This document shows positions 14,312 through 37,246 of a stretch of DNA of 64,000 nt, piece after piece. A program made the position numbers and the translations under genes. This stretch comes from Herbidospora cretacea (GTDB taxonomy: Bacteria > Actinomycetota > Actinomycetes > Streptosporangiales > Streptosporangiaceae). Under the pieces are notes generated by a model that ran no database searches, was not told where the DNA came from, and was given only the letters and a program-made list of their open reading frames with translations. The first letter of the stretch is position 1. Each line of letters begins with the position of its first letter. The stretch covers positions 172,119 through 236,118 of the forward strand of contig NZ_BBXG01000008.1 of the NCBI RefSeq assembly GCF_001570605.1, given 5' to 3'.

Positions 14312-15349
14312 TCACCGGTAGGTGGCGAGTTCGCCCGTCCGCCGGACGTCCAGCGTCACGCAGTGGATGCCGCCGCCCAGGCTCCGGGCGTGGGTGAGCT
14401 GCGTCGGGATCACCTCGACCTTGTGCCGCTCCAGCTCCTTGATCAGCCCCGTCTGCCGCCGGTCCACCAGGGCCTTCCCGGGGGCGACGACCAGGAAGTT
14501 CATGCCGATCCACACCGACGACTTCGGGTGGTCGCCGATGTAGCCGGTGTCGACCAGCTCGGGGCAGACGACCGTGTCCCAGCCGCGCAGGAAGTCGGGC
14601 ATGTTGCGGTCGTTGACGCGGGCGGGATTGATCAGCATGAGGCCGGGGCGCAGCGGGACGATGGTCGAGTCGATGTGGGTGGACGGATAGAGGCCCTCGC
14701 AGGGGTGGACGGTGTACTGGTCGCCCAGGGCGGCCTGGAGCCACTGCGCGCCGAGCAGGTTGCCGCTGTCGGAGACCTGGTAGAGCAGGTCGGTGCCGAA
14801 CCGCAGGATGTTCGCGGCGTCGAAGGCGGGTTCGAGGTTGCGCAGGCGCTGGCCCTCGGGGGCCTTGGGTTCGTACATGTCGTCGGTCAGGCGCGGCTTG
14901 GGGGCCGACAGCCAGCGCGAGCCGCTCTCCAGGTACTCCAGGAACAGCTCCTTGTACGCGAACCCTTCCAGGAACCGGGAGCGGAGCACCATGGGCGACT
15001 CGATGAGGGTGTTGCCGACCGTGAGGAAGCCGTCGCGGGGGCAGTAGTCGTAGAAGCCGTCGGTGCTCCAGTCGGGGGTGGACGTGATCGCCTGGTGGTC
15101 GCGGCCGCCGGGGCGGCGGACGGTCACGCCGAGACTCTTCAGCAGGTCGGCCAGTTCGTCGAGTTCGGCCTCGGTCTGCTCGGCCACGTCCTCGGGGTAG
15201 GGGCCGGAGGGGATGTGGTCCGGTTCGACGTCGGCGTACTCGACGGCGTGCAGGCTCCGGTCGGCCAGGGGCACGCGGGCGCCGGCCATGGTGCCGACGA
15301 CGATCTCCTCCAGCGGGTCCCATTCGTTGTGCACGTCGACCAGGCTCAT
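14312..15349 (-). CDS. amidinotransferase (arginine:glycine/inosamine type)
   Basis: A 345-residue enzyme that would move the amidino group of arginine to an amine, giving a guanidine and ornithine. The catalytic triad of this family is visible: Asp in FDAAN (about 177), His225 in STHIDST and Cys330 in GGGIHC near the C-terminus. Length and order match glycine amidinotransferase, StrB1 and cyanobacterial CyrA-like enzymes. The start has GGAGAA upstream. Such genes in actinomycetes are almost always in secondary metabolism. It borders the carrier-protein cluster, separated only by a NarL-type regulator and the acyl-CoA dehydrogenase operon, so it probably installs a guanidine on that product (inference). 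Confidence 0.85.
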   Translation of the reverse strand: MSLVDVHNEWDPLEEIVVGTMAGARVPLADRSLHAVEYADVEPDHIPSGPYPEDVAEQTEAELDELADLLKSLGVTVRRPGGRDHQAITSTPDWSTDGFYDYCPRDGFLTVGNTLIESPMVLRSRFLEGFAYKELFLEYLESGSRWLSAPKPRLTDDMYEPKAPEGQRLRNLEPAFDAANILRFGTDLLYQVSDSGNLLGAQWLQAALGDQYTVHPCEGLYPSTHIDSTIVPLRPGLMLINPARVNDRNMPDFLRGWDTVVCPELVDTGYIGDHPKSSVWIGMNFLVVAPGKALVDRRQTGLIKELERHKVEVIPTQLTHARSLGGGIHCVTLDVRRTGELATYR

Positions 15350-15666
15350 GAGGTTCTCCGTTTCGTCCGGGCGCCGAGGGCGCCATGTCGGTCGGGAATC
15401 AATGACTGATTGGGACGGCCTTTTCGGTGATCCCGTTTACCCCGGTAGGGAAGGGGCAACTGCCACCAGGTTCTCAGTCGGGATAAAGGGGGCACTTTCG
15501 ATGGTGATCAGGGGATCCACACGGCCAGGTCCACCACCGCACTTCCGCTGATCTGCAGTTCTTCTTTCAACGCTGACCGGAACGCTGTTTTGGTGCGCAA
15601 ATTAAACAGAGAGACCGGCGGTTATTCCGGGCGAGGCTCCCAGCTACCTCATCGAGGCGTCACACC
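15350..15666. promoter_or_regulatory. intergenic control region between amidinotransferase and NarL-type regulator
   Basis: 317 bp between divergent genes with no convincing gene. A 49-codon ATG frame at 15402 has poor third-position GC and no RBS. The stretch near 15597-15612 (GCGCAAATTAAAC) is unusually AT-rich for this genome and suits a promoter for the rightward regulator. Leftward promoter elements must also lie here. No clear palindromic operator was found. Confidence 0.4.
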
Positions 15667-16326
15667 ATGACCATTCGCACTCTGATCTGCGACGAACTGC
15701 CAGTGATCCGAGACGGCATGCGCACGCTGCTCGACGCCGTACCGGACATCGACGTGATCGACACCACGGACAACGGCATGGAGGCCATCGTCCTGGTGCG
15801 CACGGAGCGACCTGACGTCGTCATCACCGATCTGAACTTACGGACCATCTCCGGACTGGAGATGATCCGCCGGCTCGGCAAAGAGGACGCGCCCCCCAAC
15901 ATCGTGGTGTTCACCGGTTCGGACGCCGACAAGACCGTCAGCGACGTGCTGCACGCGGGGGCGTGCTGCCTGCTGTGCAAGGACGCGAGCCCGCAGGAGC
16001 TGGTCGCCGCGATCAGGGCGGCGGCCGAGGGCCGGACGGTGCTCGCGCCGGACATCGCGCAGCGCCTGGTCACCTGGTTCCGCGAACAGCCTGACACTGC
16101 TCCACCCGAGCCCTGCCCGGAGGTGACCGAGCTGACCCCCCGGGAGCGCGAGGTGACCCAGATGGTGGCCCGGGGGATGTCGACCGAGGAGGTCGCCCGC
16201 GCGCTGACGATCGGGGTGGCCACGGTCCGCACCCACCTCTACCGGGTGCGGACGAAGCTCGGGGTGCGCGACCGCGCCGAGCTCGTCTCACTGGCTTACC
16301 GATGCGGGCTCATCGCGCCGGCCTGA
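15667..16326 (+). CDS. NarL/FixJ-family response regulator, orphan
   Basis: A 219-residue protein: a receiver domain (about 1-120) with the phosphoacceptor Asp55 in VVITDLNL and Lys near 104 in LLCKDAS, then a LuxR-type HTH (LTPREREVTQMVARGMSTEEVARALTI and VRTHLYRVRTKLGV split over 155-205). No histidine kinase is adjacent, so it is an orphan that may respond to another kinase or act unphosphorylated. Its 3' end overlaps the converging acyl-CoA dehydrogenase-like gene by 39 bp. It sits between the amidinotransferase and the biosynthetic operon, making it the best candidate for a cluster-specific regulator. Confidence 0.85.
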   Translation: MTIRTLICDELPVIRDGMRTLLDAVPDIDVIDTTDNGMEAIVLVRTERPDVVITDLNLRTISGLEMIRRLGKEDAPPNIVVFTGSDADKTVSDVLHAGACCLLCKDASPQELVAAIRAAAEGRTVLAPDIAQRLVTWFREQPDTAPPEPCPEVTELTPREREVTQMVARGMSTEEVARALTIGVATVRTHLYRVRTKLGVRDRAELVSLAYRCGLIAPA

Positions 16327-17286
16327 CCGCCGGGCCCGGTCGAGCCGGGCGGCGCCGGCCAGCCGCCACAGGGCGGCGGGCTCGCCCCACCGGCCGGCCT
16401 CGGCCGCGGCCAGCCTGAAGTGGCGGTGCAGGCCGAGTTCCGGGGTCATCGCGCGCACCCCGCAGGCCTGCATGCAGGTCCGCACCACGTCGCGGGCGGT
16501 CTCGGCGGCCGTCGCGAGCGCCACGATCGGCGCGGTGCCCGCCTTGTCGTGGCCGTGGTCGGCCAGCCAGGATCCCCGGTACACCGCCGCCCTGGTCGCG
16601 CGGACCGCCACCATGGCGCGGGCCAGCGGGAAGGCGACGGCCGGGAGGTCACGCAGCCGCGTGCCGGACTGCCGCCGGACGCCGGTGTGCCGGACCGCGA
16701 TCTCGAGCGCGCCGTCGGCGATGCCGAGCAGGTAGGCGGCCTGGCGGAGCCGGGCGCGGGACAGCGCGTCGTCCAGCCGCGCGACGAAGGTGGCCGGGGC
16801 GTCCTCGAACCGGACGACCTGCGGCCCGCCGCCGCCCTCGGACGCCTCGGCGAGCACCGGCTCGCCGTCCATCCGGGTGGCGACCAGATACGGCCCGGGG
16901 CCGTCGGCGACGACGGCGCCGGTCAGGGCCCAGCCGCCCGCGCGCGGGGTCGCGGTGACCCCGGCGCCCACGGGCAGCGCCTCGAACCCGGCCAGGGACA
17001 TCCCCGGAGGGCGGCCCACGTCGGCGGCCAGCGCGTCGGCCCGGTAAGGGTTCCCGCAGGCCGCGCGGCCGAGCTCCTCGCTGACGACCACCCCGGCGGT
17101 CAGGCCGAGGTCGAGGCCGCCGGCGGGGACGGGCCGTTCGTAGTCGGCCACGCCCAGGTCGTCGAGCACCGCGGCGGCGTCGGCCACCGGCGGTCCGTGC
17201 ACCTCGGCCTGGAGGGGCACATGGGCGAGGGCCGCGCGCAGCGCCCGGCGCAACTGGACGATCATCGGGTCGGGGGTGAGGTCCAC
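16288..17286 (-). CDS. acyl-CoA dehydrogenase-like protein, short/divergent
   Basis: A 332-residue protein from GTG 17286. The C-terminal half (RLRQAAYLLGIADGALEIAVRHTGVR, then VRTCMQACGVRAMTPELGLHRHFR) matches the FAD-binding helical domain of acyl-CoA dehydrogenases; the N-terminal and middle domains are reduced. The usual catalytic Glu is not obvious, so it may be a non-catalytic partner of the adjacent full-length dehydrogenase, as in heteromeric FadE pairs. It starts one base after the stop of that gene, at the end of the leftward lysX-lysK-NRPS operon. A role in desaturating or oxidising a carrier-bound acyl unit is inferred from position. Confidence 0.75.
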   Translation of the reverse strand: MDLTPDPMIVQLRRALRAALAHVPLQAEVHGPPVADAAAVLDDLGVADYERPVPAGGLDLGLTAGVVVSEELGRAACGNPYRADALAADVGRPPGMSLAGFEALPVGAGVTATPRAGGWALTGAVVADGPGPYLVATRMDGEPVLAEASEGGGGPQVVRFEDAPATFVARLDDALSRARLRQAAYLLGIADGALEIAVRHTGVRRQSGTRLRDLPAVAFPLARAMVAVRATRAAVYRGSWLADHGHDKAGTAPIVALATAAETARDVVRTCMQACGVRAMTPELGLHRHFRLAAAEAGRWGEPAALWRLAGAARLDRARRSGRRDEPASVSQ

Positions 17287-17287
17287 G

Positions 17288-18430
17288 TCAGCGCCTCTCT
17301 TGTCCGATGGAGTCGAACGCGGTGGCCATGATCTGGAGCATCACCTCGGAGGTGCCCGCCGACAGTGTCAGCCCCGGCGCCTCCCGGTAGGCGGAGTCCA
17401 GCGTCACGGCGGCCCGGGTGCGGCCGGCCCGCTGCCGGGCGTCGGGGAGGCCGGCGGCCCAGATCGCGATGCTCTGGGCGAGTTCGCTGCTGTGGTACTT
17501 CGCGACGGCGGCGGCGACCGGATCGACCCGGCCGGCCGCCAGGCCGGTGAGGACCTCCCAGGCCAGCACGTGGTCGGCGGCGAGCGCGCCGTCCCAGCGG
17601 CCGATCTGTTCGAGGTAGTGGTCGGCCTCCCGGTCGAGCAGCGTCTCCAGCGCGGCGTCCAGCCAGTGTTCGGCCTTGAGGAAGTAGTCGAGGCCGGTGC
17701 GCTCGATGGCCAGCGCCTCGTTGAGGAGCGGCCAGCCCTGGTCGCGCGGGCCGATGAGGTCGGCGCCGGAGACCGGCACCGCGTCGAGGTCGACCTGGTG
17801 GAACTGCTCGTCGCTGACCCCGGGGATCACCGACACGGTCACGCCGGGGGCGGCCAGGTCGACGAGGAAGAGGCTGATGCCCTGGTACTTCCCGGCGCCA
17901 GGCGTGGTGCGGGCCGCGCACAGGCCGTGGTGGACGAAGCGGGTCTTGAGGCTGAACACCTTCGTGCCGGTGATCCGGTAGCCGTCGCCGTCCGGTTCGG
18001 CCACGGTGCGCAGCGCGCCCAGGTCCGATCCGGCGTCGGGTTCGGTGTAGAGGACCGAGGCGAACCGCTCGCCGCGCGCGAGGGCGGGCAGGTGGCGGCG
18101 TTTCTGCTCGTCGTCGCCCGCCATCAGCAGGAACTGGCCGACGATCTGGATGGTGTTGACGTGCAGGGTGTCCGGGACGCCCGCGCGCACCAGTTCCTCC
18201 GCGACGATCGCGGCGTCGGTGAGCGGGCGGCCCGCGCCGCCGAACTCGGCGGGCCAGTGGACGGCGAGCAATCCGAGCCCGCCGAGCAGCCGGTAGAGGG
18301 GCCGCTGGTCGGGTTCGACGCCGTCGGCCGCCGTGGCCTCGGCGACCGCCGCCCGCACCTCGGCGGAGCGCAGCGCCTTCCGGACGTCGGCCCGGAAGCG
18401 CTCTTGGTCCTCGGTGAATCCGTATCGCAT
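17288..18430 (-). CDS. acyl-CoA dehydrogenase family flavoenzyme
   Basis: A 380-residue protein with the complete fold: N-terminal helices (MRYGFTEDQERFRADVR), the signature YTEPDAGSDLGALRT where substrate and FAD meet, and the C-terminal SAYREAPGLTLSAGTSEVML, the usual flavin-contact region. Such enzymes dehydrogenate acyl-CoA or acyl-carrier substrates at alpha/beta positions, and relatives in NRPS clusters oxidise T-domain-bound residues or act as N-hydroxylases. It lies two bases after the NRPS stop and two before the partner gene, so all three are co-transcribed. A paired dehydrogenase acting on the NRPS-bound product is my inference. Confidence 0.85.
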   Translation of the reverse strand: MRYGFTEDQERFRADVRKALRSAEVRAAVAEATAADGVEPDQRPLYRLLGGLGLLAVHWPAEFGGAGRPLTDAAIVAEELVRAGVPDTLHVNTIQIVGQFLLMAGDDEQKRRHLPALARGERFASVLYTEPDAGSDLGALRTVAEPDGDGYRITGTKVFSLKTRFVHHGLCAARTTPGAGKYQGISLFLVDLAAPGVTVSVIPGVSDEQFHQVDLDAVPVSGADLIGPRDQGWPLLNEALAIERTGLDYFLKAEHWLDAALETLLDREADHYLEQIGRWDGALAADHVLAWEVLTGLAAGRVDPVAAAVAKYHSSELAQSIAIWAAGLPDARQRAGRTRAAVTLDSAYREAPGLTLSAGTSEVMLQIMATAFDSIGQERR

Positions 18431-18431: not shown

Positions 18432-21400
18432 TCAGAGCGTCCGTTCGATCTCGGCGACGATCCGGCTCAGGGCCGGTTCGGCGAAGAGGGTGTAGTGGTC
18501 GCCGGGCACCTCGTGGCTCGCGAAGGGGCCCGTGCACACGTCCCGCCACTGCTGGTCGAAACCCGGCTTGGGCGAGGCGGCCAGCAGGGTGACCGGGCCG
18601 CCGTAGGGGCCGGAGGGGCGGTAGTCCTGGAGGGCCAGCGCGCAGGCGCGGAAGACGGCGTAGCGGTCGTCCATCAGCTCGTCGTCGGCGGAGACGTCCT
18701 GGCCGGTCAGCCGGGCGACGTCGTGGGCGAACCGCCGCCGGATCGTCGGCTCGTCCAGGTCGTGCGGATCCTCGTCGTGGAAGGCGTCGAGCAGCACGAC
18801 CGGCGGCCGGGCCCCGGTCTCCCGCTCCAGCAGCCTGGCGACCTCGAAGGCGAGCACTCCCCCGTAGGACCACCCGGCCAGGCAGAAGGGCTCGGGGGCG
18901 TCCTTCAGGGCCGCCGCGATCTCGGCGGCGGTCGCGGGGATGCTCTCGGGCGGGGCGGTGGCGGGGAAGCCGGCCACGCCGACGCCCTCGCGCAGCGCCC
19001 GGACCAGCGGCACGTAGCAGAACAGCTCGCCGCCGGACGGGTGCACCAGGATCAGCCGCGCGGGCTCCGGCCCCCGCATCCGCACGGCCTTGCCCTCGGA
19101 GACGTCCGCGGAGGCGGAGTCGATGGCGGCGGCCAGGTGCGCGACGGTCGGCGAGACGAAGAAGTCGGCGAGCGACACCTCCACGCCGAACCTGCGGTTG
19201 ATCGCCGACATGAGCTGCGCGGCCTGCAGGCTGTTGCCCCCGACCTGGAAGAAGTCGTCGTGGACGCCGAGCCGGTCGTCGCGCAGCAGCGGGGCGACCA
19301 CGTCACGGAGCAGCGCCTTCTCGGTCGCGGTGCGCGGCTCGTCGGCCGGTCCGTCGCCCGCCGACCGGGGGTCGGGCGCGGGCAGTCGCCGCCAGTCGAC
19401 CTTGCCGCTGCTGGTGAGCGGCAGCTCGTCCAGGACGACGAAGAACGAGGGGATCATGTACGACGGCAGCACCGTCGCCAGGTGCTCGCGCACCGACGGC
19501 ACCCGGTCCCCGGGGATGCCCGTGACGTAGCCGACCAGGTGTTTCGCGCCGGTGTCGTCGCTCCACGCCCGCACCGTCACCGGGCCCACGCCGGGCACGG
19601 CGGCCAGCGCCGACTCCACCTCGCCGAGCTCGATCCGCAGCCCCCGGATCTTGACCTGCTGGTCGAGGCGCCCGAGGAAGACCAGGCGGCCGTCGGGCAG
19701 CCGTTTGACCAGGTCGCCGGTCCGGTAGAGCCGTCCGCCCGGCGCGGTGCCGAACGGGTCGGCGACGAACTTCTCCTCGGTCAGCCCGGGCCGGTCGAGG
19801 TAGCCGCGCGCCAGCCCGGCCCCGCCGATCACCAGTTCGCCGGGCACCCCGACCGGCACCTGGCGCAGGTCGCGGTCCAGCACGTGGGCGACGTGGTTGG
19901 CCATGGGCAGGCCGATCGGCGGGGAGGCGTCCCAGGTGCCCGCGCACTCCTCGACGATCATCGTCACGGTGCACTCGGTGGGGCCGTAGCCGTTGAACAG
20001 CCGCCGGCCCGGGTTCCACCGGTTGACCAGCTCGCCGCTGAACGCCTCGCCGCCGACGAACGCGATCCGCAGGTCGGTGAACCTCTCCGGCGCGAGCAGC
20101 GGCATCACGGTCGGCGGCAGGTCGATGACGGTGATCCCCTGGCGTTCCATGAGCGCCTGGAGCCGGTCGATGGACAGCCGTTCGTCGTCGGTGGCGACGC
20201 ACAGGCGGGCCCCGGTCAGCAGCGCCGAGAACGTCTCGAACACCGACACGTCGAAGGTCGCCGAGGCGAAGCCGAGCACCCGGTCGGCCGGGGTCAGGCC
20301 GAACAGGTCCCGCGTGGAGTCGGTGAAGTTGACCACGCCGCGGTGTTCGAGCAGGACCCCCTTCGGGCGGCCGGTGCTGCCGGAGGTGTAGATGATGTAC
20401 GCCACGTCGTGCGGCCGGGCCGCCAGGGGCGGGTTGTCCTCGGGGAGGCCGGCGCTCAGGTCGTCCACGATCACGACCGGGGCGGCGACGTCGGCCACGG
20501 TCGTGGCCACCTCGCGGTGCGCGACCACCGCGCGCAGGTCCGCGTCGGCGGCGATCTCCGCGACCCGGGCGGGCGGGTGAGCCGGGTCGAGCGGCACGTA
20601 GGCCGCGCCGGTCTTGAGGACGGCGAGCATCGCCGCCGGCAGGTCGAGGGTGCGGCGCAGGCACAGGCCGACCCGCGCGCCGGGCCCGGCGCCGTGCTCG
20701 CGCAGCAGCGCCGCGAGCCGGTTGGCGCGGGCGTTGAGCTCGGCGTAGGTGGTCTCCCGGTCCTCGGCGACCACCGCCACGCTGTCGGGAGCCTCGGCGA
20801 CCCGCGCCTCGAACTGTTCCACGATCGTGGTCTCGCGGATCGGCCGCACGGGGCCGCTGCCGACCTCGGCAAGGAACGCCCTCTCCGAGGGGCTGAGCAT
20901 CTCGGCGGCCGACAGCGGGGCGTCCGGGTCGGCGGTCAGGGCGCGGAGCAGCGCGTCGTAGTGGCGGGCGAACCGGGCGACGCTCTCCCGGTCGAACAGG
21001 CCGGTGTCGTACGAGACCCGCAGCCGCCTCCCCCGCAGGCTCCAGCTCATGTCGAAGCGGGAGTCCCCGGCGGGCACGTCCTCCTCCGAGGCCACCAGCC
21101 CCGGGAAGCCGGGGGTGACCGGGTCCTGCGCGCCGAAGGTGATGGGGAAGGCCGGTTCGGCCGGCGGCGGGGCGTCGAGCGCGTCGGAGGCGGCCCGGCT
21201 CACCCGCCGGACGAGCTCGCGGAAGGCGGGGTCGCCGGAGACGTCCACGCGGAGCGGTCGCACGGTGGCGAAGGGCCCGATCACCGAGGACACGGAGTCG
21301 AAGCGCCGGTTCGGGTCGGGCGAGCCGATGACCAGGTCGTCGAGGCCGCAGTAGCGCCGCAGCAGCGTGAGGAAGGCGGCGGCGCAGACGTCGGCGGGGG

Positions 21401-22145
21401 TCGCGTCCTCCTCCTGGGCGAGCTGCCCGGCCCGCTCCAGTCCTTCGGGCCAGAGCTCGAAACCGGCGACCTCGAACGACGGGGCGAACGACGGGGCGCC
21501 GCCCCGGGGCCGGTCGGTCGGGAACTCCAGCACCTCGGCCCCGGCCAGGACGTCGCGTCCGGCGTCGGCGCGCTGGTCGCGCTGCCACGCCGCGTAGTCG
21601 GGGTAGTGGACGGGCAGGTCGGGCAGCTTCGGGTCGCCGCCGTAGACCTCGGCCAGTTCGCGGGTCAGCACCCCGATCGACGCCTCGTCGAAGATCATGG
21701 GGTGGGCGGCGAAGTGGAGCACGTGCTCGTCCGGCGCGACCCTGACCAGGGCGGCGCGCCACAGCGGGGCCCGTTCCGGGTCGATCGGCCCGAGGTCGGC
21801 CGCCACGTCGAGAAGGGGCAGCTCGACCGGGACCGCCGGGGCCACGACCTGCGCCGGGCGGCCTTCGCGTTCGACGATCGCGGTGCGCAGCGCCTCGTGC
21901 CGGGCCACGACGGCGGCCAGCGCCGACCGCAGCGCCCCGACGTCGAGGTCGCCGTGGAGCCGGAGCCGCAGCCCTGCCTCGGACGCCGACGTCAGGCTCT
22001 CCTGGGCGGCCGACAGCGGGACCGGGCCGGTGTTCCCGCGCGGGGCCGGGCCGCGCCGGGCCTCGGCCTGCTCCTTCAGCAGCGCGAGGAACCGGGTCCG
22101 GCGCTCGGCGGGGAGCGCGGCCAGGCGCTCGGACATGCCGGTCAT
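18432..22145 (-). CDS. nonribosomal peptide synthetase, C-A-T-TE single module
   Basis: A 1,237-residue protein from the ATG at 22145, which overlaps the stop of the lysK-like gene (ATGA). Order: condensation domain (about 40-420), adenylation (about 440-950; YTSGSTGRPKG, FNGYGPTE, YRTGD and SGK motifs), thiolation (GGNSLQAA, about 1000) and thioesterase (GWSYGG serine; GDHY histidine near the end). The condensation active site reads H148-P-M-I-F-D153-E, so the second, catalytic His of HHxxxDG is Pro. Hand alignment to PheA gives the specificity residues D-V-F-D-A-V-G-V-T-K, which match no code I know. It probably activates one amino acid and releases or joins it to the carrier-derived residue. 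Confidence 0.92.
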   Translation of the reverse strand: MTGMSERLAALPAERRTRFLALLKEQAEARRGPAPRGNTGPVPLSAAQESLTSASEAGLRLRLHGDLDVGALRSALAAVVARHEALRTAIVEREGRPAQVVAPAVPVELPLLDVAADLGPIDPERAPLWRAALVRVAPDEHVLHFAAHPMIFDEASIGVLTRELAEVYGGDPKLPDLPVHYPDYAAWQRDQRADAGRDVLAGAEVLEFPTDRPRGGAPSFAPSFEVAGFELWPEGLERAGQLAQEEDATPADVCAAAFLTLLRRYCGLDDLVIGSPDPNRRFDSVSSVIGPFATVRPLRVDVSGDPAFRELVRRVSRAASDALDAPPPAEPAFPITFGAQDPVTPGFPGLVASEEDVPAGDSRFDMSWSLRGRRLRVSYDTGLFDRESVARFARHYDALLRALTADPDAPLSAAEMLSPSERAFLAEVGSGPVRPIRETTIVEQFEARVAEAPDSVAVVAEDRETTYAELNARANRLAALLREHGAGPGARVGLCLRRTLDLPAAMLAVLKTGAAYVPLDPAHPPARVAEIAADADLRAVVAHREVATTVADVAAPVVIVDDLSAGLPEDNPPLAARPHDVAYIIYTSGSTGRPKGVLLEHRGVVNFTDSTRDLFGLTPADRVLGFASATFDVSVFETFSALLTGARLCVATDDERLSIDRLQALMERQGITVIDLPPTVMPLLAPERFTDLRIAFVGGEAFSGELVNRWNPGRRLFNGYGPTECTVTMIVEECAGTWDASPPIGLPMANHVAHVLDRDLRQVPVGVPGELVIGGAGLARGYLDRPGLTEEKFVADPFGTAPGGRLYRTGDLVKRLPDGRLVFLGRLDQQVKIRGLRIELGEVESALAAVPGVGPVTVRAWSDDTGAKHLVGYVTGIPGDRVPSVREHLATVLPSYMIPSFFVVLDELPLTSSGKVDWRRLPAPDPRSAGDGPADEPRTATEKALLRDVVAPLLRDDRLGVHDDFFQVGGNSLQAAQLMSAINRRFGVEVSLADFFVSPTVAHLAAAIDSASADVSEGKAVRMRGPEPARLILVHPSGGELFCYVPLVRALREGVGVAGFPATAPPESIPATAAEIAAALKDAPEPFCLAGWSYGGVLAFEVARLLERETGARPPVVLLDAFHDEDPHDLDEPTIRRRFAHDVARLTGQDVSADDELMDDRYAVFRACALALQDYRPSGPYGGPVTLLAASPKPGFDQQWRDVCTGPFASHEVPGDHYTLFAEPALSRIVAEIERTL

Positions 22146-27971: not shown

Positions 27972-28792
27972 CCGGGGTGGCGACGGACACGCTGGAGGCC
28001 GTCGCGGCCCGGATCCGGGCGCACGTCGTCGACATGTGCGCCGGGCCCGAAGGCGGCCACCTCGGCGGGGCGTTCTCCTGCACCGAGGTGCTCACCGCGC
28101 TCTACTTCTCGGTCCTGAACGTCGACCCGGAGCGCCCCGACGACCCCGACCGCGACCGGTTCCTGCTCAGCAAGGGCCACGCCGCCGTCGGGCTCTACGC
28201 GACGCTGGCCGAACGCGGCTACTTCCCGACCGAGGAACTGGCCGGTTACGGGCGGCCCGGCAGCAGGCTGATGGGCCACCCGGTCCGCGCGGTGCCCGGC
28301 GTGGAGCTGCCGACCGGCTCGCTCGGCCACGGTCTCGCGCTGGCCTGCGGGTTCGCGCTGGCCCACCGCTACGCCGGCCGGGACGCGCGCAGCTTCGTGC
28401 TGCTCGGCGACGGCGAGCTCCAGGAGGGTTCGGTGTGGGAGGCGGCCATCGCCGCCGCGTCGCTGCGGCTCGACCGGGTGGTCGCCGTGGTCGACCGCAA
28501 CGGGCTGCAGCTCACCGGCTCCACCGAGGGGATCGCCCCGATGGAGCCGCTGGCCGACCGCTGGCGCGACTTCGGCTGGTCGGTCCGCGAGGCCGACGGC
28601 CACGACCCGGTCCTGCTCGCCGAGCATCTGGCCGCCGCGCCGTGGGAGCCGGGCAGACCGAGTGTGCTGATCGCCCGTACGGTCAAGGGCCACGGGCTCC
28701 CGTTCCTCGAAGGCCGCGCCGCCAGCCACTACGTGACGCTGTCGGAGCGCAACCACGCCCGCGCCCTCGGCGCGCTGGAGGACGCCCGATGA
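27968..28792 (+). CDS. transketolase N-terminal (TPP-binding) subunit
   Basis: A 274-residue protein equal to the first third of transketolase. The TPP/Mg motif starts at [11 protein letters not shown] (147 on) and ends with the Asn of VVDRN (178); [12 protein letters not shown] and [12 protein letters not shown] are also typical. Split transketolases in clusters move a two-carbon ketol unit onto a special aldehyde; here the expected acceptor is glutamate semialdehyde on the carrier protein. Starts and stops overlap on both sides (ATGA), so it is made with its partner. Confidence 0.92.
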
Positions 28793-29730: not shown

Positions 29731-29912
29731 CCCAGCAGATGACCACCGTGCGCACCTGCCCCGAGTGTGAGGACGAGGTGCAGATCAGGGATTCGGCCCG
29801 GCTGAACGAGATCGTCGAGTGCGCCGGGTGCCGGAGCGAACTGGAGATCGTGGCGCTGAGCCCCGTGGTCCTCGTCCTCGCCCCGGAGGTCGAAGAAGAT
29901 TGGGGTGAGTGA
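29727..29912 (+). CDS. lysW: LysW-type amino-group carrier protein (AmCP)
   Basis: A 61-residue acidic protein with two zinc-binding knuckles, C11-PE-C14 and C32-AG-C35, and the C-terminal EDWGE that defines LysW/AmCP. The side-chain carboxyl of the final Glu61 would be joined to the alpha-amino group of glutamate by LysX, protecting it and presenting it to the downstream enzymes. It has GAAGGAG upstream of the ATG and overlaps its neighbours on both sides, consistent with tight stoichiometry with LysY. Finding it with transketolase and sulfotransferase genes marks secondary rather than lysine/arginine metabolism. Confidence 0.95.
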   Translation: MTQQMTTVRTCPECEDEVQIRDSARLNEIVECAGCRSELEIVALSPVVLVLAPEVEEDWGE

Positions 29913-29914: not shown

Positions 29915-30940
29915 ATGATCCGCGTCGCCGTGATCGGGGCCGCCGGGTACATCGGCGGTGAGCTGCTCCGGCTGCTCATCACCCACCCGAAGGTCGAGGT
30001 GGTGGGCGCGGTGTCCTCCCGCTTCCCTGGCAAGCGGGTCGACGGGGTCCATCCGAACCTGCGCTCCTTCACCGACCTGCTCTTCTGCGCGCCGGAGGAC
30101 CTGGAGGAGTGCGACGTCGTCTTCCTCGCCACCCCCCACCGCGCCGCCATGACCCAGATCGACCACTGGAACGACCGCGCCAAGCTGGTCATCGACCTCA
30201 CCGGCGACTTCCGGCTGGACGACACCGAGGTCTACGAGCAGTACTACGGCACCGAGCACGCCGCGCCGCACCTGCTCGACGACTTCGTCCCGGGGATTCC
30301 TGAGCTCTACCGGGACGACCTGCGCGGCGCCGACCTGATCAGCGTGCCCGGCTGCATGGCGGTGGCGGGCGTGCTCGCCCTCTACCCCCTCGTGGAACGG
30401 GACCTGGTCGACTCCTCGGCCCAGTTCGACGCGCGCACCGGCTCCAGCGGTTCGGGGGCCACCGCGGGCGAGGGGAACCTGCACGCCGAACGCAGCGGGG
30501 CGATGCGGGTGTTCGCCCCGACCGGGCACCGGCACGAGGCGGAGATCTCCCGGCACCTCGGCATCCCGGCCGCCATGACGGCGACGGGCGTCGAGGCGGT
30601 GCGCGGCGTGCAGACCATCTGCCACGCCGAGCTCCAGCCCGGCGTCGACACCTCGGAGGTCCGCCGGGCCTTCCGTGAGCAGTACCGGGACGAGCCGTTC
30701 GTCCGGCTGGTCGCCCAGCAGCGCGGCACCTTCCGCTACCCGGAGCCCAAGATCCTCGTGGGCTCCAACTTCTGCGACGTCGGCTACGCCGTCGACGAGG
30801 AGGCCGGGCGGCTGTCGACCATCGCGGCGCTGGACAACCTGATGAAGGGGGGCGCGGGCAACGCGATCCAGTGCCTGAACGTCCGCATGGGCTGGCCGGA
30901 GTCGCTCGGCCTGTCCTTCCCCGGCCTGCATCCCGTCTGA
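29915..30940 (+). CDS. lysY: LysY-type carrier-bound glutamyl-phosphate reductase
   Basis: A 341-residue NADPH reductase of the ArgC/LysY family: Rossmann loop GAAGYIGGELL (8-18), catalytic Cys147 in SVPGCMAVAG, and the conserved RTGSSGSGAT-like stretch that follows. It reduces the gamma-phosphate of carrier-linked glutamate to the semialdehyde, the acceptor for the transketolase. ATG 29915 is preferred because GGGGTGAG lies five bases upstream; a GTG at 29909 overlapping the lysW stop is possible. Confidence 0.92.
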   Translation: MIRVAVIGAAGYIGGELLRLLITHPKVEVVGAVSSRFPGKRVDGVHPNLRSFTDLLFCAPEDLEECDVVFLATPHRAAMTQIDHWNDRAKLVIDLTGDFRLDDTEVYEQYYGTEHAAPHLLDDFVPGIPELYRDDLRGADLISVPGCMAVAGVLALYPLVERDLVDSSAQFDARTGSSGSGATAGEGNLHAERSGAMRVFAPTGHRHEAEISRHLGIPAAMTATGVEAVRGVQTICHAELQPGVDTSEVRRAFREQYRDEPFVRLVAQQRGTFRYPEPKILVGSNFCDVGYAVDEEAGRLSTIAALDNLMKGGAGNAIQCLNVRMGWPESLGLSFPGLHPV

Positions 30941-30952: not shown

Positions 30953-31771
30953 GTGATCGTCGTCAAGTGCGGGGGCAACTCGGCCGTGGACGCCGCGGGC
31001 ATCTGCGCCGACGTCGCCGGGCTCGTCCGCGAAGGGCAGCCCGTCGTCCTGGTGCACGGAGGTTCCGGGGAGATCGCCCGGCTGTCCGGGGACCTCGGGG
31101 TGCCCAGGCGCACCCTCGTCGCCCCCGACGGGGTGTCCACCAGGTACACCGACCCCGCGACCCTGGAGGTCGTCGTCCTCGCGCTGGCCGGCGCGGTCAA
31201 ACCGAAGCTCGTCGCGGAGCTGTCCCGCCTCGGGGCGCCCGCGGTCGGGCTCACCGGCCTGGACGGCGGCATGCTGCGGGCCCGCCGCAAGTCCGCCGTC
31301 CGGGCCGTGGTCGACGGCCGGACCACGCTGGTCCGGGACAACCTCAGCGGGCGGCTCACCGAGGTCCGCACCGAACTGCCGAAGACCCTGCTGCGCGCCG
31401 GCTTCGTGCCGGTCGTCTCGCCGCCCGCGGCCGACGAGCAGGGGCAGCCGGTGAACGTCGACGCCGACCGGGCCGCGGCGGCGCTCGCCGCGGCGCTCGG
31501 CGCCGACCGGCTGGTGCTGCTGACCGGCGCGCCCGGGGTGCTCGCCGATCCCGGCGACGACGCCAGCCTGCTCGACAGCTACGAGGTGCCGCCGACCGGC
31601 GCGCCCGGCCGGTTCGCCGCCGGGGGCATGGCCCTCAAGCTGGTCGCCGCCCGGGAGGCGCTGGCCGGTGGGGTCGGGTCGGTCCGCATCGCGGACGGGC
31701 GGGTGTCCGAGCCCGTCAGCCGGGCAGTGGCCGGGCGCGGCACCATCGTCCGGCTGGGAGCGGCGTCATGA
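30953..31771 (+). CDS. lysZ: LysZ-type carrier-bound glutamate kinase
   Basis: A 272-residue amino-acid kinase of the ArgB/LysZ group, starting at GTG 30953 with CTGGAG upstream. IVVKCGGNS is the phosphate loop, VLVHGGSGEI the substrate loop, and NVDADRAAAALAAALGADRLVLLTGAPGV the nucleotide site. It phosphorylates the gamma-carboxyl of carrier-bound glutamate before LysY. It is the third of the consecutive LysW-LysY-LysZ set and overlaps the MFS gene by ATGA. Confidence 0.92.
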   Translation: MIVVKCGGNSAVDAAGICADVAGLVREGQPVVLVHGGSGEIARLSGDLGVPRRTLVAPDGVSTRYTDPATLEVVVLALAGAVKPKLVAELSRLGAPAVGLTGLDGGMLRARRKSAVRAVVDGRTTLVRDNLSGRLTEVRTELPKTLLRAGFVPVVSPPAADEQGQPVNVDADRAAAALAAALGADRLVLLTGAPGVLADPGDDASLLDSYEVPPTGAPGRFAAGGMALKLVAAREALAGGVGSVRIADGRVSEPVSRAVAGRGTIVRLGAAS

Positions 31772-33039
31772 GCGGGCAGACCACCGAACAGCGGGAGCGG
31801 CCCGGGAGCCTGTGGCGGCACCGCGACTTCATGCTGCTCTGGTCCGGGGAGACCATCTCCCAGACCGGGGCGCAGATCTCGCTGGTGGCCGTGCCGCTGA
31901 CCGCCATCACCGTGCTGCACGCCGGGCCGACCGAGGTCGCCCTGCTGACCGCGCTGCAGTACGCGCCGGTCATCCTCATCACCCTGTTCGCCGGGGCCTG
32001 GCTCGACCGCCACCGGCGCAAGCCGGTGCTCGTCGTGACGAACCTGATCCGGTTCGCGCTGATCATGCTGATCCCGCTGAGCTACCTGACCGATCTGCTC
32101 TCGCTCGGCCTGCTGTACGCGGTGACCTTCGGCGTCGGCCTGCTGATGGCGGTGTTCGACGTCGCCTACGTCGTCTACCTGTCGTCGCTGGTCTCCCGCG
32201 ACCAGCTGATCGAGGCCAACGCCAAGCTCGAAGGGACCTACTCGATCGCGCAGATCGGCGGCCCCGGCATCGGCGGGGTGCTCGTGCAGGCGGCGACCGC
32301 CCCCGTGGCGCTGGTCGCCAACGCCGCGACGTGCCTGTTCGCCGCCCTGGCGTTCGTCGGCATCCGCAAGCAGGAGGTCGTGGCGGCGCCGGAGGGCGAG
32401 CGGCCGTCGATGCGGGCCGAGATCGCCGACGGGTTACGGGCGATCCTGCGCCACCGGGTGCTGCGGATGCTGGCCGTCCAGGCCGCGCTGTTCAACCTGT
32501 TCGAGCAGATCGTGCTCACGCTCTATCTGCTGTTCGGGGTCCGCGAGCTGCGGCTCGGGGCCGGTCAGCTCGGCCTGATCCTGACCACGGCCAGCGTCGG
32601 CGGCCTGATCGGCGTGCTGCTGTCCGGGCGGGCCGCCGCCGCGATCGGCACAGGCCGGTGCATCGTCATCTCGATGGTGGTCAGCGCGGCCGGGCTCGTG
32701 GTGGTGCCGTTCGCCCCGGCGACGCCGGTGCTCGCGGTCGTCGTGCTGGTCGGCGGTTTCGTCGTGTACGGCTTCGGGCTCGGCATCTTCAGCGTCCACT
32801 CGCTGAGCGTGCGGATGGCCCAGGCCCCGCCCGAGCTGCTCGGCCGGATCACCGCGACGTTCCGGCTGCTCATCTACGGCACGATCCCGATCGGCGCGCT
32901 GCTCGCCGGGGTCCTCGGGAACGTGTTCGGCGTCCGGGCGGCGATCATGCTGGGCGCGGTTCCGCTGCTCGTGCTGTCGACGCTGTTCTGGTTCAGCTCG
33001 GTACGCCACGCCGACCTCTCGATCGGAGGAGACCGATGA
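31768..33039 (+). CDS. MFS exporter (DHA3/EntS-like) of the cluster
   Basis: A 423-residue transporter with about 12 membrane helices. GAWLDRHRRKP is motif A, and IAQIGGPGIGGVLVQ the antiporter-type helix 5 region. Its relatives export siderophores, macrolides and other cluster products. Since it is embedded by ATGA overlaps between lysZ and the GNAT gene, it is very probably the exporter and self-resistance route for the cluster's product. Confidence 0.88.
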   Translation: MSGQTTEQRERPGSLWRHRDFMLLWSGETISQTGAQISLVAVPLTAITVLHAGPTEVALLTALQYAPVILITLFAGAWLDRHRRKPVLVVTNLIRFALIMLIPLSYLTDLLSLGLLYAVTFGVGLLMAVFDVAYVVYLSSLVSRDQLIEANAKLEGTYSIAQIGGPGIGGVLVQAATAPVALVANAATCLFAALAFVGIRKQEVVAAPEGERPSMRAEIADGLRAILRHRVLRMLAVQAALFNLFEQIVLTLYLLFGVRELRLGAGQLGLILTTASVGGLIGVLLSGRAAAAIGTGRCIVISMVVSAAGLVVVPFAPATPVLAVVVLVGGFVVYGFGLGIFSVHSLSVRMAQAPPELLGRITATFRLLIYGTIPIGALLAGVLGNVFGVRAAIMLGAVPLLVLSTLFWFSSVRHADLSIGGDR

Positions 33040-34076
33040 CCACATGGGACCAACGGGCGGGCCGCGACTTCTACTCCAGCTCGAACTGGCTCGGCTTCTG
33101 CGCCACCGAGCACGGCGCGAAGGCCGACACGGTGATCTCCGGTGACGTCGCCGTCCCGGTGTTCACCGGGGGCGACCTGGCCGGGGGGTCGTACGACTGG
33201 AACGCCAAGCTCACCGAACGGTCGCTGCCGGCGCTCCCGTCCGAGGGGCTCCTCGTCGGCCCGTGCGAGGGCTACCAGACGCGCGTCCTCGGGCCGGGGC
33301 CGGTCGACGGCCTGCTGGCCGAGCTCCGCGCCCGCGACCGGACGTGCGTGGCGATGTACCTCGACACCGACGGGGTCCGCCGGTTCCGCGCGGCGGGCGT
33401 GCAGGCGCCGCCCGTCCTGCTCGACTGCGACGCCTGGATGCCGGTCCCCGAGGGCGGCTACGAGGGGTGGCTCGCCACCCTGAGCGGGAAGCGGCGGACC
33501 GCCGTCCGCAAGGAGGTCAACGCCTTCACCTCGGCCGGCTACCAGGTCAGGCACGTGCCGCTGCGCGAGTGCGCCACGGACATCGCCCCTCTCGCGGTCA
33601 CCACGGAGGCCAAATACGGCTTCCACGCCGAGACCCAGGACGACATCGCCACCTTCCGCAACCACGTGGAGTGCCTCGGCGACGCCGCGACGGTCGCGCT
33701 GTGCCTCCTGGACGGCGAACCCGTCGGCTTCTGCCTCTACTACGTCTGGCAGGACACGGTCTTCCTGCGCTGGGCCGGTTTCGACTACTCCCGGCTGCGC
33801 GACGCCTACGAGTACTTCAACCTGCTCTATTACGAGCAGTTCCGCTGGGCGTCCGACCGGGGGATCCGGTGGATCCACGCCGGGATCAAGGCCACGAAGG
33901 CCAAGGTGGCGCGCGGCGCCGCCATCCATCCGCTCTGGCTGCTCGACCTCGGGGCCGACAGTCCCCTCGTCGGCGCGGAGCAGGCCGTACACGACCACAA
34001 CTCGGCGTTCCTCGACGAGCTGCTGGCGGACGCCACGCTGGCCCGGGGCATCGCCGACCTGGAGGAATGGAAATGA
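33036..34076 (+). CDS. FemAB/peptidogalycan-type GNAT transferase
   Basis: A 346-residue protein. SGKRRTAVRKEVNAFTSAGY, TTEAKYGF, GEPVGFCLYYVWQDTVFLRWAGFDY and the YEYFNLLYYEQFRWA stretch are the conserved blocks of the GNAT relatives annotated as peptidogalycan biosynthesis/recognition proteins, close to FemAB aminoacyl transferases and BioF2-like acyltransferases. It may form an amide on the product, with an aminoacyl-tRNA or acyl-CoA donor; which one cannot be told. It lies inside the main operon with four-base overlaps on both sides. Confidence 0.75.
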   Translation: MTTWDQRAGRDFYSSSNWLGFCATEHGAKADTVISGDVAVPVFTGGDLAGGSYDWNAKLTERSLPALPSEGLLVGPCEGYQTRVLGPGPVDGLLAELRARDRTCVAMYLDTDGVRRFRAAGVQAPPVLLDCDAWMPVPEGGYEGWLATLSGKRRTAVRKEVNAFTSAGYQVRHVPLRECATDIAPLAVTTEAKYGFHAETQDDIATFRNHVECLGDAATVALCLLDGEPVGFCLYYVWQDTVFLRWAGFDYSRLRDAYEYFNLLYYEQFRWASDRGIRWIHAGIKATKAKVARGAAIHPLWLLDLGADSPLVGAEQAVHDHNSAFLDELLADATLARGIADLEEWK

Positions 34077-35275
34077 ACGACCAGGAGCACATCGCTCTGG
34101 CGGACCGCTGGAGCGCGCACAACTACCACCCGCTGCCCGTCGTGCTGTCGCACGGCGCGGGCGCCTGGATGACCGACGTCAACGGGCGGCGCTACCTCGA
34201 CCTGCTCGCCGGATACTCCGCGCTGAACTTCGGCCACCGGCACCCCGCCCTCGTCGCGGCGGCCAAGGAGCAGCTCGACCGGCTGACGCTGACCGGCCGT
34301 GCCTTCCACCACGACCAGTTCGGGCCGTTCTGCCGCGAGTTGGCCGAGCTGACCGGCACCGAGATGGTGCTGCCAGCCAACTCCGGCGCCGAGGCGGTCG
34401 AGTCGGCCGTGAAGATCGCCAGGAAGTGGGCCTACCAGGTCAAGGGCGTGCCCGAGGGCGCGGCCGAGATCGTCGTCGCGGGCGACAACTTCCACGGCCG
34501 GACCACGACGATCATCTCCTTCTCCACCGACCCGGAGGCCCGCGACGAGTTCGGCCCGTTCACGCCGGGTTTCACGGTCGTCCCGTACGGCGACGCCGAG
34601 GCGCTCCGCGCGGCGATCACCGGCAACACCGCGGCCGTCCTGCTGGAGCCCATCCAGGGCGAGGCCGGGGTGGTCGTCCCGCCGAAGGGCTACCTCACCG
34701 AGGTCCGCCAGATCTGCGACGACACGAACACGCTGTTCGTCGCCGACGAGGTCCAGTCGGGCCTGGCCCGCACCGGCGCGACGCTGGCCCTCGACCACGA
34801 GGGCGTCCGGGCGGACCTGTACGCCGTCGGCAAGGCGCTCGGCGGCGGGATCCTCCCGGTGTCGGCGGTGATCGGCCGGGCCGACGTGATCGGCGTGCTC
34901 AAGCCCGGCGAACACGGCTCGACGTTCGGCGGCAACCCGATGGCGTGCGCCGTCGGCCGCGCGGTGGTGCGCCTGCTGGCCACCGGCGAGTTCCAGGAGC
35001 GCTCCCGCGAACTCGGCGCCTACCTGCACTCCCGCCTCAGCGAGCTCGACGGCGTCGCCGAGGTCCGCGGCCGGGGCCTGTGGGCCAGCGTGGAGATCGC
35101 CGAGGGCCGCACGGCCGGCCGGAGCGTCTCCGAGGCGCTGGCCGAGCGCGGCGTGCTGTGCAAGGAGTTCCACTCGACCCTCCGGGTGGCGCCGCCACTG
35201 GTGATCACCCGGTCCGAGATCGACTTCGGCGTCGACGCGATCGCCGGCGTCCTGGGAGGTGGTCACCGTGGCTGA
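34073..35275 (+). CDS. class-III aminotransferase, ornithine/acetylornithine (RocD/LysJ) type
   Basis: A 400-residue PLP enzyme. The N-terminal NYHPLPVVLSHGAGAWMTDVNG and NSGAEAVESAVKIARKWAY are characteristic of ornithine aminotransferase. EPIQGEAGVVVP, LFVADEVQSGLARTG and GKALGGGILPVSAV (PLP Lys in the last) complete the active site. In lysine/ornithine carrier pathways this step (LysJ) aminates the semialdehyde. In this cluster the semialdehyde is expected to go to the transketolase, so a second aminotransferase implies either a carrier-bound ornithine branch, recycling of ornithine left by the amidinotransferase, or another amination. Confidence 0.85.
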   Translation: MNDQEHIALADRWSAHNYHPLPVVLSHGAGAWMTDVNGRRYLDLLAGYSALNFGHRHPALVAAAKEQLDRLTLTGRAFHHDQFGPFCRELAELTGTEMVLPANSGAEAVESAVKIARKWAYQVKGVPEGAAEIVVAGDNFHGRTTTIISFSTDPEARDEFGPFTPGFTVVPYGDAEALRAAITGNTAAVLLEPIQGEAGVVVPPKGYLTEVRQICDDTNTLFVADEVQSGLARTGATLALDHEGVRADLYAVGKALGGGILPVSAVIGRADVIGVLKPGEHGSTFGGNPMACAVGRAVVRLLATGEFQERSRELGAYLHSRLSELDGVAEVRGRGLWASVEIAEGRTAGRSVSEALAERGVLCKEFHSTLRVAPPLVITRSEIDFGVDAIAGVLGGGHRG

Positions 35276-36500
35276 CCGTTTACTGGTGATCGGCGGCAAG
35301 GTCCAGCACGTCCGCAAGGCCAGGGAGCTCGGCCTCGACGTCGTGCACGTCCAGTTCCCCGACGAGTTCGACCGCGGCAACGCCCTCTACGTCGACCAGG
35401 CGCTCCTGCTCGACTACGGCGACATCGACCGGCTGCTGCCGCTGGCCAGGGCGCTGCACCAGGTCTACCCGTTCCAGGCGGCCGTGTCGCAGTTCGAGCT
35501 CGGGCTGCTGCCCGCCGCCCGGATCAACGAGGCGCTCGGCCTGACCGGCGAGTCGGTCGAGACCGTCGAACTGCTGCTGGACAAGTGGCGGATGCGCCGC
35601 CACCTGGCCGCGACCGGCGTCAGCCCGGTGGCGTCGGCGGTCGGCCGGTCGGCGCAGGACGTGCGGGACTTCGTGAAGAGGCACGGCCTGCCGATCATCG
35701 TCAAGCCGATCCGCGAGTCGGGCAGCCTGGCGGTCTTCCGCATCGACGACCAGGCCGGCGTGGACGCGGTCGCCGACCGGTTCCGCGCCCTCGACGGGCA
35801 GTTCGACGCCCGTGACCTGACCGCGTCCGACTCCTTCGACGAGTTCCTCCTGGAGGAGTTCCTCGACGGCCCGGAGATCAGCGTCGAGACGCTGAGCTTC
35901 GACGGCCGCCACGTGGTCGTCGCGGTGACCGAGAAGGAGTGCGGCGGTCCGGGCGGCTTCGTCGAGATCGGCCACTCCCAGCCCGGCGCGTGCCCGCCCG
36001 AGGTGGTCCAGCTCGTGAGCGACTTCCTCGACGCGGTGGGGCTGCGCAACGGCCCCGGCCACACCGAGGTCATGCTGACCTCGCGCGGCCCGAGGATCGT
36101 CGAGTCGCACAACCGCGTCGGCGGCGACCGGATCAACGAACTGGCCGAGATCGCCTACGGCGTCGACATGGAGAGCTACGCGCTGACCGCCGGGCTGGGC
36201 GTGCTGGAGCCGCTGACCGCCTCACCCGAGCCCCGGGGCGGCGCGGCCATCCGCTTCCTCACCCCCGAACCGGGCCGGGTCGTCGAGATCACCGGCCTGG
36301 ACGCCGTCCGCGCCGACCCGGCGTTCGTCGACGTCCACCTGGACGTGGGCCCCGGCGACCAGGTGCCCCCGCTGGTCTGGAACGAGGACAAGGTCGGCTA
36401 CGTCATCGCCCGGGGGGCGAGCGCCGCCGAGGCCATCGAGAACGGCAAACGGCTGGCCGGGATGGTCCACGTCCGCACCGTGCGGGAGGAGGAGTCATGA
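35268..36500 (+). CDS. ATP-grasp amino-acid ligase
   Basis: A 410-residue protein from the GTG at 35268, chosen for the GGGAGG RBS at 35254-35259. DKWRMRRHLAATGVSP, LPIIVKPIRESGS and the magnesium-binding VESHNRVGGDRINELAE are ATP-grasp signatures of the BacD/carnosine-synthase type, which join two amino acids through an acyl phosphate. It could attach a residue to the azabicyclic amino acid without using the NRPS. It overlaps the preceding aminotransferase by eight bases and the SDR by four. Confidence 0.85.
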   Translation: MADRLLVIGGKVQHVRKARELGLDVVHVQFPDEFDRGNALYVDQALLLDYGDIDRLLPLARALHQVYPFQAAVSQFELGLLPAARINEALGLTGESVETVELLLDKWRMRRHLAATGVSPVASAVGRSAQDVRDFVKRHGLPIIVKPIRESGSLAVFRIDDQAGVDAVADRFRALDGQFDARDLTASDSFDEFLLEEFLDGPEISVETLSFDGRHVVVAVTEKECGGPGGFVEIGHSQPGACPPEVVQLVSDFLDAVGLRNGPGHTEVMLTSRGPRIVESHNRVGGDRINELAEIAYGVDMESYALTAGLGVLEPLTASPEPRGGAAIRFLTPEPGRVVEITGLDAVRADPAFVDVHLDVGPGDQVPPLVWNEDKVGYVIARGASAAEAIENGKRLAGMVHVRTVREEES

Positions 36501-37246
36501 CCGACTTCACGGGACTGGCCGCGATCGTCACCGGCGGCGCGTCCGGCATCGGCCTGGCCACCGCGAGACTGCTGCACGCCAGGGGCGCCTCGGTGGCCGC
36601 GCTCGACCTGAAGCCCGACGGCCTGCCCGACGGCGTCCTGGGCGTCGCGGCCGACGTGACCGACGACGCCCAGGTCAAAGCCGCCGTCGACGGCGTGGCC
36701 GAGCGCTTCGGCCGCCTCGACGTGGTGGTCAACAACGCCGGGATCAGCGCGGTCGGCGACGTCGCCGGCAACAGCGACGACGAGTGGCTGCACGTCCTGG
36801 ACGTCAACGTGGTCGGCATGGTCCGGGTCGCCCGGCACGCCCTGCCGCACCTGCGCCGCTCCCCCGCCGCCGCGATCGTCAACACCTGTTCGATCGTCGC
36901 CTGGGCGGGCCTCCAGCAGCGGGTCCTCTACTCGGCCAGCAAGGGCGCGGTCTACGCGCTCACCCTGGCCATGGCCGCCGACCACGCCCGCGAGGGCATC
37001 CGGGTCAACTGCGTCGCCCCCGGCACCGCCGACACGCCGTGGGTCGACCGCCAGATGAACGCGGCCGAGGACCCCGAGGCGGCCAGGGCCGCGCTGACCG
37101 GCTTCCAGCCGACCGGCCGCCTGGTGACGGCCGACGAGGTGGCCGGGGCGATCGCCTACCTGGCCAGCCCGCTGTCGGGCGCCTCGGTGGGCACCGTGCT
37201 CGCCGTCGACAACGGCATGCACGCCCTGCGGCTGCGGCCTAACTGA
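36497..37246 (+). CDS. short-chain dehydrogenase/reductase
   Basis: A 249-residue SDR of the classical type: nucleotide loop TGGASGIGLA, NNAG, catalytic Ser in NTCSIVAW, and YSASK with the Tyr-x-x-x-Lys pair. The preference appears to be NAD(H), from the Asp ending strand 2 (AALDLKPD). It is the last gene of the rightward operon, with an ATGA overlap. It may oxidise or reduce a hydroxyl of the azabicycle, for instance to allow later amination; the substrate is unknown. The 3' end converges on the MMPL gene with eight bases shared. Confidence 0.9.
   Translation: MTDFTGLAAIVTGGASGIGLATARLLHARGASVAALDLKPDGLPDGVLGVAADVTDDAQVKAAVDGVAERFGRLDVVVNNAGISAVGDVAGNSDDEWLHVLDVNVVGMVRVARHALPHLRRSPAAAIVNTCSIVAWAGLQQRVLYSASKGAVYALTLAMAADHAREGIRVNCVAPGTADTPWVDRQMNAAEDPEAARAALTGFQPTGRLVTADEVAGAIAYLASPLSGASVGTVLAVDNGMHALRLRPN

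Follow-up and report, generated by a model that had tools for sequence, protein, structure and literature searches.

A putative ficellomycin-type azabicycle gene cluster in Herbidospora cretacea

The window analysed here is a 64,000-nucleotide stretch of Herbidospora cretacea DNA (G000:C8:172119-236118), taken from a genome of 8.28 Mb (36 contigs). Within it, twenty-one genes at positions 14312-37246 form what is very probably a ficellomycin-type biosynthetic cluster, with the exact product putative. Genes were mapped with a codon-position GC model and their proteins scanned with Pfam and NCBIfam (Table 1). A leftward set comprises the amidinotransferase, ACD2, ACD1, nonribosomal peptide synthetase (NRPS), LysK and LysX, a rightward set runs from the sulfotransferase through the short-chain dehydrogenase (SDR), and the separate LuxR-type gene likely encodes the cluster regulator. 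The map and the domain scans confirmed an earlier sequence-only reading that had placed most of these enzymes in one cluster and mostly linked by four-base overlaps, which are exact at 10 of the 20 gene junctions in the cluster. To the enzymes named earlier are added the LuxR-type regulator, an ornithine-aminotransferase-like enzyme, an MFS exporter and the SDR.

Two adjacent genes that had been left unnamed were found to encode homologues of aziridine-forming proteins. The product of 25100-25681, which has no Pfam or NCBIfam match, matched AziU2 (7wuw, 7wux) and Azi28 (8gs1) with E values of 5e-52 to 6e-52, and that of 25678-26682 matched AziU3 and Azi29 (7e-71 and 1e-70). Structure 7WUX is described as (5S,6S)-O7-sulfo 2,6-diamino-5,7-dihydroxyheptanoic acid (DADH) in complex with AziU3/U2 (PMC11168924), and the formation of DADH, its sulfation and ring closure are among the subjects of a review (PMC9570651). 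Because the cluster encodes both a sulfotransferase and an AziU2/AziU3-type pair, the case for an aziridine product is strengthened, and the earlier sequence-based proposal of a carrier-protein pathway leading to DADH and then an aziridine gains support. The cluster also combines a two-subunit oxidase of the 8HK0 type with an NRPS; going by its title, the study of Cheng et al. 2023, cited alongside ficellomycin (PMC11880133), concerns an oxidase heterotetramer plus an NRPS.

The sequence of 8HK0 chain A was searched against 392 Streptomyces genomes, sampled evenly from a larger group, and 14 held a match at E <= 1e-100, with at least 75% identity in 11 of them. The Streptomyces genome G234 (one contig of 7,078,240 bases) encodes a protein identical to chain A at all 384 residues. 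Reciprocal best hits between the window genes and a 60 kb stretch around the G234 ACD1 identified orthologues of 19 of the 21 cluster genes at 68-90% identity, all within 1360756-1388264 (28 kb), whereas none of the 41 other window genes had such a match, so the correspondence of the two clusters is not a matter of chance. Relative order and orientation of the 19 orthologues are identical in the two genomes, and no homologue of the window MFS and GNAT-like genes was detectable in the G234 stretch. With G234 taken as Streptomyces ficellus, whose ficellomycin cluster was reportedly described by Liu et al. in 2017, that cluster has the 19 orthologues, their order and orientation and the motif strings of the adenylation domain in common with the window. 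The suggestion that the combination of genes was an unrecognised one and its product possibly new was not upheld, as the same amidinotransferase, ligase, dehydrogenase pair and NRPS occur in G234, where ACD1 is identical to 8HK0 chain A. The window would therefore hold a nearly complete ficellomycin-type set outside Streptomyces and for the most part no new kind of pathway. Herbidospora and, through the relatives described below, Micromonosporaceae would then be among the bacteria with a pathway to an aziridine antibiotic that damages DNA.

The two clusters differ between LysZ and the class III aminotransferase, where the window has the MFS and GNAT-like genes and G234 has sulfate-activation genes; a different MFS gene lies between the ligase and the SDR in G234. 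The G234 genes include an adenosine 5'-phosphosulfate (APS) kinase, a PAPS_reduct-domain (CysD-like) gene and a third gene whose counterpart in genome G405 encodes an EF-Tu-domain (CysN-like) protein. The APS kinase and CysD-like genes were found in both G234 and G405, the CysN-like protein was scanned in G405 only, and the sulfate-activation genes of G011 were assigned by position and sequence start. Since 3'-phosphoadenosine 5'-phosphosulfate can come from primary metabolism, these genes would be accessory to ficellomycin-type clusters.

Table 1. Predicted genes of the 14312-37246 cluster, with window positions, strands and the matches that identify them
Feature	Position	Strand	Evidence
Amidinotransferase (inosamine-phosphate amidinotransferase-like)	14312..15349	-	PDB 1bwd E 5.2e-168 over 2-345; G234 orthologue 80%
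LuxR-type response regulator	15667..16326	+	Response_reg + GerE; G234 orthologue 87%
ACD2, azabicycle oxidase second subunit	16288..17286	-	PDB 8hk0_C E 6.2e-129; G234 68%
ACD1, azabicycle oxidase first subunit	17288..18430	-	PDB 8hk0_A E 1.6e-215; 87.5% identity, 384 aligned positions
NRPS: degenerate condensation, adenylation, carrier, thioesterase domains	18432..22145	-	Pfam
LysK-type hydrolase	22142..23227	-	TIGR01902 293.4 bits (cut-off 163.1); G234 89%
LysX-type ligase	23224..24078	-	LysX preATP-grasp; TIGR02144 267.7 bits (cut-off 275.6); G234 83%
Sulfotransferase	24297..25016	+	PF19798; G234 81%
AziU2 homologue	25100..25681	+	PDB 8gs1_A E 5e-52, 7wuw_A E 6e-52
AziU3 homologue	25678..26682	+	BtrH_N (Pfam); PDB 7wuw_C E 6.8e-71
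DegT aminotransferase	26682..27971	+	PF01041; G234 86%
Transketolase N-terminal subunit	27968..28792	+	PF00456; G234 90%
Transketolase pyrimidine-binding/C-terminal subunit	28789..29730	+	PF02779 + PF02780; G234 90%
LysW amino-group carrier protein	29727..29912	+	PF21344 50.6 bits (cut-off 27); TIGR01206 52.3 bits (cut-off 53.2)
LysY/ArgC-type phosphate reductase	29915..30940	+	TIGR01850 349.7 bits
LysZ-type kinase	30953..31771	+	[LysW]-aminoadipate kinase model 260.8 bits (cut-off 223)
MFS exporter	31768..33039	+	PF07690/PF05977
FemAB/GNAT-like acyl or aminoacyl transferase, accessory	33036..34076	+	PF04339/PF13480
Class III aminotransferase (ornithine-aminotransferase-like)	34073..35275	+	PF00202; TIGR01885 461 bits (cut-off 378.4); G234 82%
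L-amino-acid ligase (ATP-grasp, LAL_C2)	35268..36500	+	PF18603; PDB 3vot E 1.6e-21; G234 73%
Short-chain dehydrogenase (SDR)	36497..37246	+	PF13561; G234 90% over 216 residues

The amidinotransferase had no Pfam or NCBIfam match at E 0.001 and was recognised through PDB 1BWD, while searches for solved relatives returned none for the sulfotransferase at E up to 0.001 and none for the GNAT-like protein at E up to 1. The LysW protein has a Zn-ribbon family domain and ends in EDWGE, the C-terminal glutamate of LysW-type carriers being the attachment point.

Gene identity, order and orthology were determined here, and the final product is one we infer from a proposed pathway. LysX would load glutamate onto the C-terminal glutamate of LysW, LysZ and LysY would convert the carrier-bound glutamate to the semialdehyde, and the split transketolase would add two carbons. 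The DegT enzyme would then aminate the intermediate on the carrier, probably at C6, and LysK would presumably free DADH from LysW. Sulfation of O7 is the expected role of the sulfotransferase, after which N6 could displace the sulfate with AziU2/AziU3 to close the aziridine. The aziridine amino acid would be adenylated and tethered by the NRPS and desaturated beside the thioester by the ACD1/ACD2 oxidase, at a carbon that we infer, so that attack of the aziridine nitrogen on carbon 3 would give a 1-azabicyclo[3.1.0]hexane, to be released by the thioesterase. A ring hydroxyl may next become an amine, with the SDR oxidising the C5 hydroxyl and the class III aminotransferase then aminating it; the amidinotransferase would turn this ring amine into a guanidine, and the ATP-grasp ligase would attach one amino acid. 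In ficellomycin this amino acid is valine. DADH formation on a carrier, sulfation, sulfate displacement and an oxidase-NRPS ring-closing step are all in print for related systems, to the extent that the sources consulted describe them.

The adenylation domains of the window and G234 NRPSs have the same strings FDVSVFE, ITVIDLPP, RIAFVGGE and NGYGPTECTVT, and it is from such strings that specificity positions are commonly read. In place of the condensation motif HHxxxDG, the window protein has HPMIFDE. The second histidine of this motif is the catalytic one, and it is absent in 17 of 18 aligned NRPSs; that of Micromonospora sp. NBRC 107566 (L026) alone retains an intact motif (HHIVVDG). All 18 retain intact carrier (GGNSL) and thioesterase (GWSYGG) motifs. 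With the condensation histidine so widely lost, such NRPSs may act as tethers in ring closure and not in peptide synthesis. The module would then act as an adenylation-carrier-thioesterase tether, with the peptide bond formed by the stand-alone ligase. The window NRPS is 1237 residues long versus 1383 in G234, with 66 residues of the difference in the condensation region, which spans 438 residues in the window, 431 in H. mongoliensis and 504 in G234. The window and H. mongoliensis proteins are also shorter than that of G234 in the linker and thioesterase.

A scan of genome contigs with LysX gave 24 loci, each up to 20.9 kb. A transketolase C subunit is present in 22 of these, or 23 once L026 was extended, L031 being a short contig. 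The amidinotransferase was tested in 20 of the 24 loci. Twenty azabicycle genomes were compared, consisting of the genomes of 15 of these loci together with G234, G405, G035, G182 and G403; the aminotransferase, ligase and GNAT genes were tested in all twenty and the amidinotransferase also in the last five (cut-off E 1e-100). Outside the H. cretacea genome, the simple codon-position gene caller leaves some genes out or cuts them short, as in the metagenome-assembled genome (MAG) G018. Amidinotransferase (at least 76% identity) and ligase (at least 65%) co-occur in seven of the twenty (G007, G011, G014, G016, G018, G234 and G405), and neither was found at these levels in the other thirteen whole genomes, a division that offers a basis for working out the guanidine and dipeptide genes. 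The sister clusters without the pair, such as those of Streptomyces niger (L030) and Catellatospora paridis (L037), have in common with the window, where they are among the LysX loci, the sulfotransferase, AziU2/U3, DegT, transketolase, LysX, LysK, NRPS and ACD pair. The class III aminotransferase (at least 75%) is found in 13 of the 20 genomes. In a tree of AziU3 with 22 rows, the window shares an unresolved fork with six amidinotransferase genomes, 11 others form a branch that does not include it (support 92/96, short of the tool's star), and azinomycin AziU3 sits on a long branch, which makes its placement unsure.

In G405 the amidinotransferase is distant from the main cluster, in a locus of its own. 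Second loci apart from the main azabicycle cluster, L067 (G405:C1:1436000-1455999) and L071 (G011:C85:5000-24999), were seen to hold an amidinotransferase, a class III aminotransferase and two ATP-grasp ligase-like genes.

Several observations weigh against the assignment of the window to the ficellomycin type. Two of its links are our own assumptions, namely 8HK0, which we take to be the S. ficellus ficellomycin oxidase of the Cheng et al. paper, and G234, presumably the ficellomycin system of S. ficellus; among the papers listed in a literature search, none mentioned '8HK0' or Fic32. Pfam and NCBIfam scans of the window's 21 genes revealed no APS kinase or CysD/CysN-like gene, the window MFS is not that of G234 and the GNAT-like gene is additional. 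Among the thirteen genomes without the pair, weaker amidinotransferase-like (35-46%) and ligase-like (37-47%) genes occur in six and three, respectively. Six genomes without the amidinotransferase also have the class III aminotransferase, so that a strict tie between this enzyme and guanidine formation was rejected; the guanidine branch is not alone in having it. Finally, the AziU3 of L023 (G014) falls inside the branch of genomes without the pair despite the presence of both genes.

Other known systems and a primary role were considered as alternatives. The azabicycle module of azinomycin (AziU2/AziU3 and AziC genes) has AziU2 and AziU3 homologues and the transketolase in common with the window, as far as the review describes it (PMC9570651), although the G234 orthologue of AziU3 is closer to the window protein than the azinomycin one is, and the window cluster has an amidinotransferase and a ligase; no polyketide synthase domain was found in a scan limited to the 21 cluster genes. 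A cluster like that of vazabitide A would be in keeping with the carrier-bound DADH reported for that compound, a likeness drawn from the published description alone (PMC9570651), but the amidinotransferase-ligase pair groups the window with the G234 set of seven genomes, which makes this assignment improbable. Synthesis of lysine or arginine on LysW as primary metabolism is scarcely credible. LysK and LysZ do score near or above the equivalog models of the LysW pathway, including 352 bits for LysK against the [LysW]-lysine hydrolase model (just under its cut-off of 363), but the operons also contain the AziU2/AziU3 homologues, sulfotransferase and NRPS, only two of seven genomes in the genus have the cluster's ACD1, and a separate argC exists at C8:9708-10727 besides the cluster LysY. 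The separate argC, together with the transketolase C subunit found beside nearly all LysX relatives, speaks against a place for LysXYZ and the transketolase in primary lysine and arginine pathways, which would have counted against the earlier reading.

Within the ficellomycin-type assignment, the same azabicycle pathway could lead to a new congener, either by acylation or aminoacylation with the GNAT-like enzyme or by a ligase that adds an amino acid other than valine. Besides the window, the GNAT-like gene occurs in three of the 20 relatives (H. mongoliensis, a Micromonospora and a Micromonosporaceae MAG), adjoining a window-type MFS gene in all three, so that it is known from Herbidospora and Micromonosporaceae, and among the shared proteins only the NRPS and ACD2 are less conserved than the ligase (73%). 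The GNAT-like gene could equally encode a self-resistance acetyltransferase, however, and the genes thought to build the molecule are conserved with G234, so a new congener is possible but not the outcome we favour. A more detailed form of this proposal is somewhat less likely again: a new ficellomycin congener outside Streptomyces, in which the GNAT-like enzyme might add an aminoacyl or acyl group or mask the toxic molecule as a pro-drug for MFS export, the condensation domain of a non-condensing NRPS might be a docking platform for the oxidase, and the stand-alone ligase might form the peptide bond.

AlkZ-type self-resistance genes have been reported in five ficellomycin/vazabitide-like clusters (PMC9040887). 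Such a gene was sought as a member of the present cluster and rejected, as seven matches were found in the genome (one under the cut-off), none of them on contig C8; other self-protection may therefore be needed. An AlkZ-like gene lies about 14 kb from the G234 cluster, and in G405 an AlkZ-like glycosylase gene is about 1 kb away from L067, where the second amidinotransferase is encoded.

Distribution in the genus was assessed in seven genomes including that of H. cretacea, and in the family with 297 Streptosporangiaceae genomes sampled evenly from a larger group. ACD1 was found at E <= 1e-90 in the H. cretacea genome and G003 within the genus, and in 10 of the 297 family genomes, the other eight at 47-57% identity. 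The patchy presence in the genus is consistent with gain by transfer. Beyond 14312 no window gene has a match in G234, in support of a left cluster edge at that position. On the right, the genes of 39374-44068 (Sulfotransfer_4, AMP-ligase and flavoenzymes) were rejected as cluster members, being kept in Herbidospora genomes without the cluster. The gene at 41622 is present in all seven Herbidospora genomes, five of which lack the cluster's ACD1, and 39374-43055 is contiguous in those five, which places the end of the cluster before 39374. Homologues of 39374-44068 do adjoin the azabicycle cluster of Micromonospora G016. A possible further member is an MMPL-family transporter gene (37239-39374) on the strand opposite to the SDR gene, whose end it overlaps. 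It lies close to the cluster in both cluster-bearing Herbidospora, H. mongoliensis included; it was not found in the stretches examined from the other five Herbidospora, and nothing in the G234 stretch matches it.

Further into the window, 40161-48545 forms a cassette of AMP-ligase, FAD oxidoreductase, FMN dehydrogenase, P450-like, Na/H exchanger and two-component-like genes. A cassette of the same type lies near the azabicycle cluster of Micromonospora G016 (L064, G016:C17:88000-107999) at 38-62% identity; its FAD oxidoreductase is present in all seven Herbidospora genomes, with or without the cluster. The Sulfotransfer_4 gene at 39374-40063 and the gene at 61834-62529, 22 kb apart, have very similar starts (MDVIGAGFGRTGT...).

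A second amino-group-carrier cluster was noted elsewhere in the same genome (L009, G000:C29:26000-45900, genes 3120-19619), including LysW, LysX, LysY, a split transketolase, an SDR, a Sulfotransfer_3 protein, CysD/CysN-like proteins, an AMP-ligase, an acyl-CoA dehydrogenase and a fused LysZ-LysK protein of 624 aa (AA_kinase + Peptidase_M20). No DegT or AziU2/U3 gene was found within its 20 kb. This cluster may build a polyhydroxy amino acid on the carrier, with reduction replacing transamination, and is possibly more novel than the azabicycle cluster. All 16 of the L009 proteins tested matched loci in five other Herbidospora genomes (L010-L014, 83-96%), which puts this type of cluster in six of the seven Herbidospora genomes, and many were also matched in Thermomonospora and Actinomadura (L034, L035 and L038).

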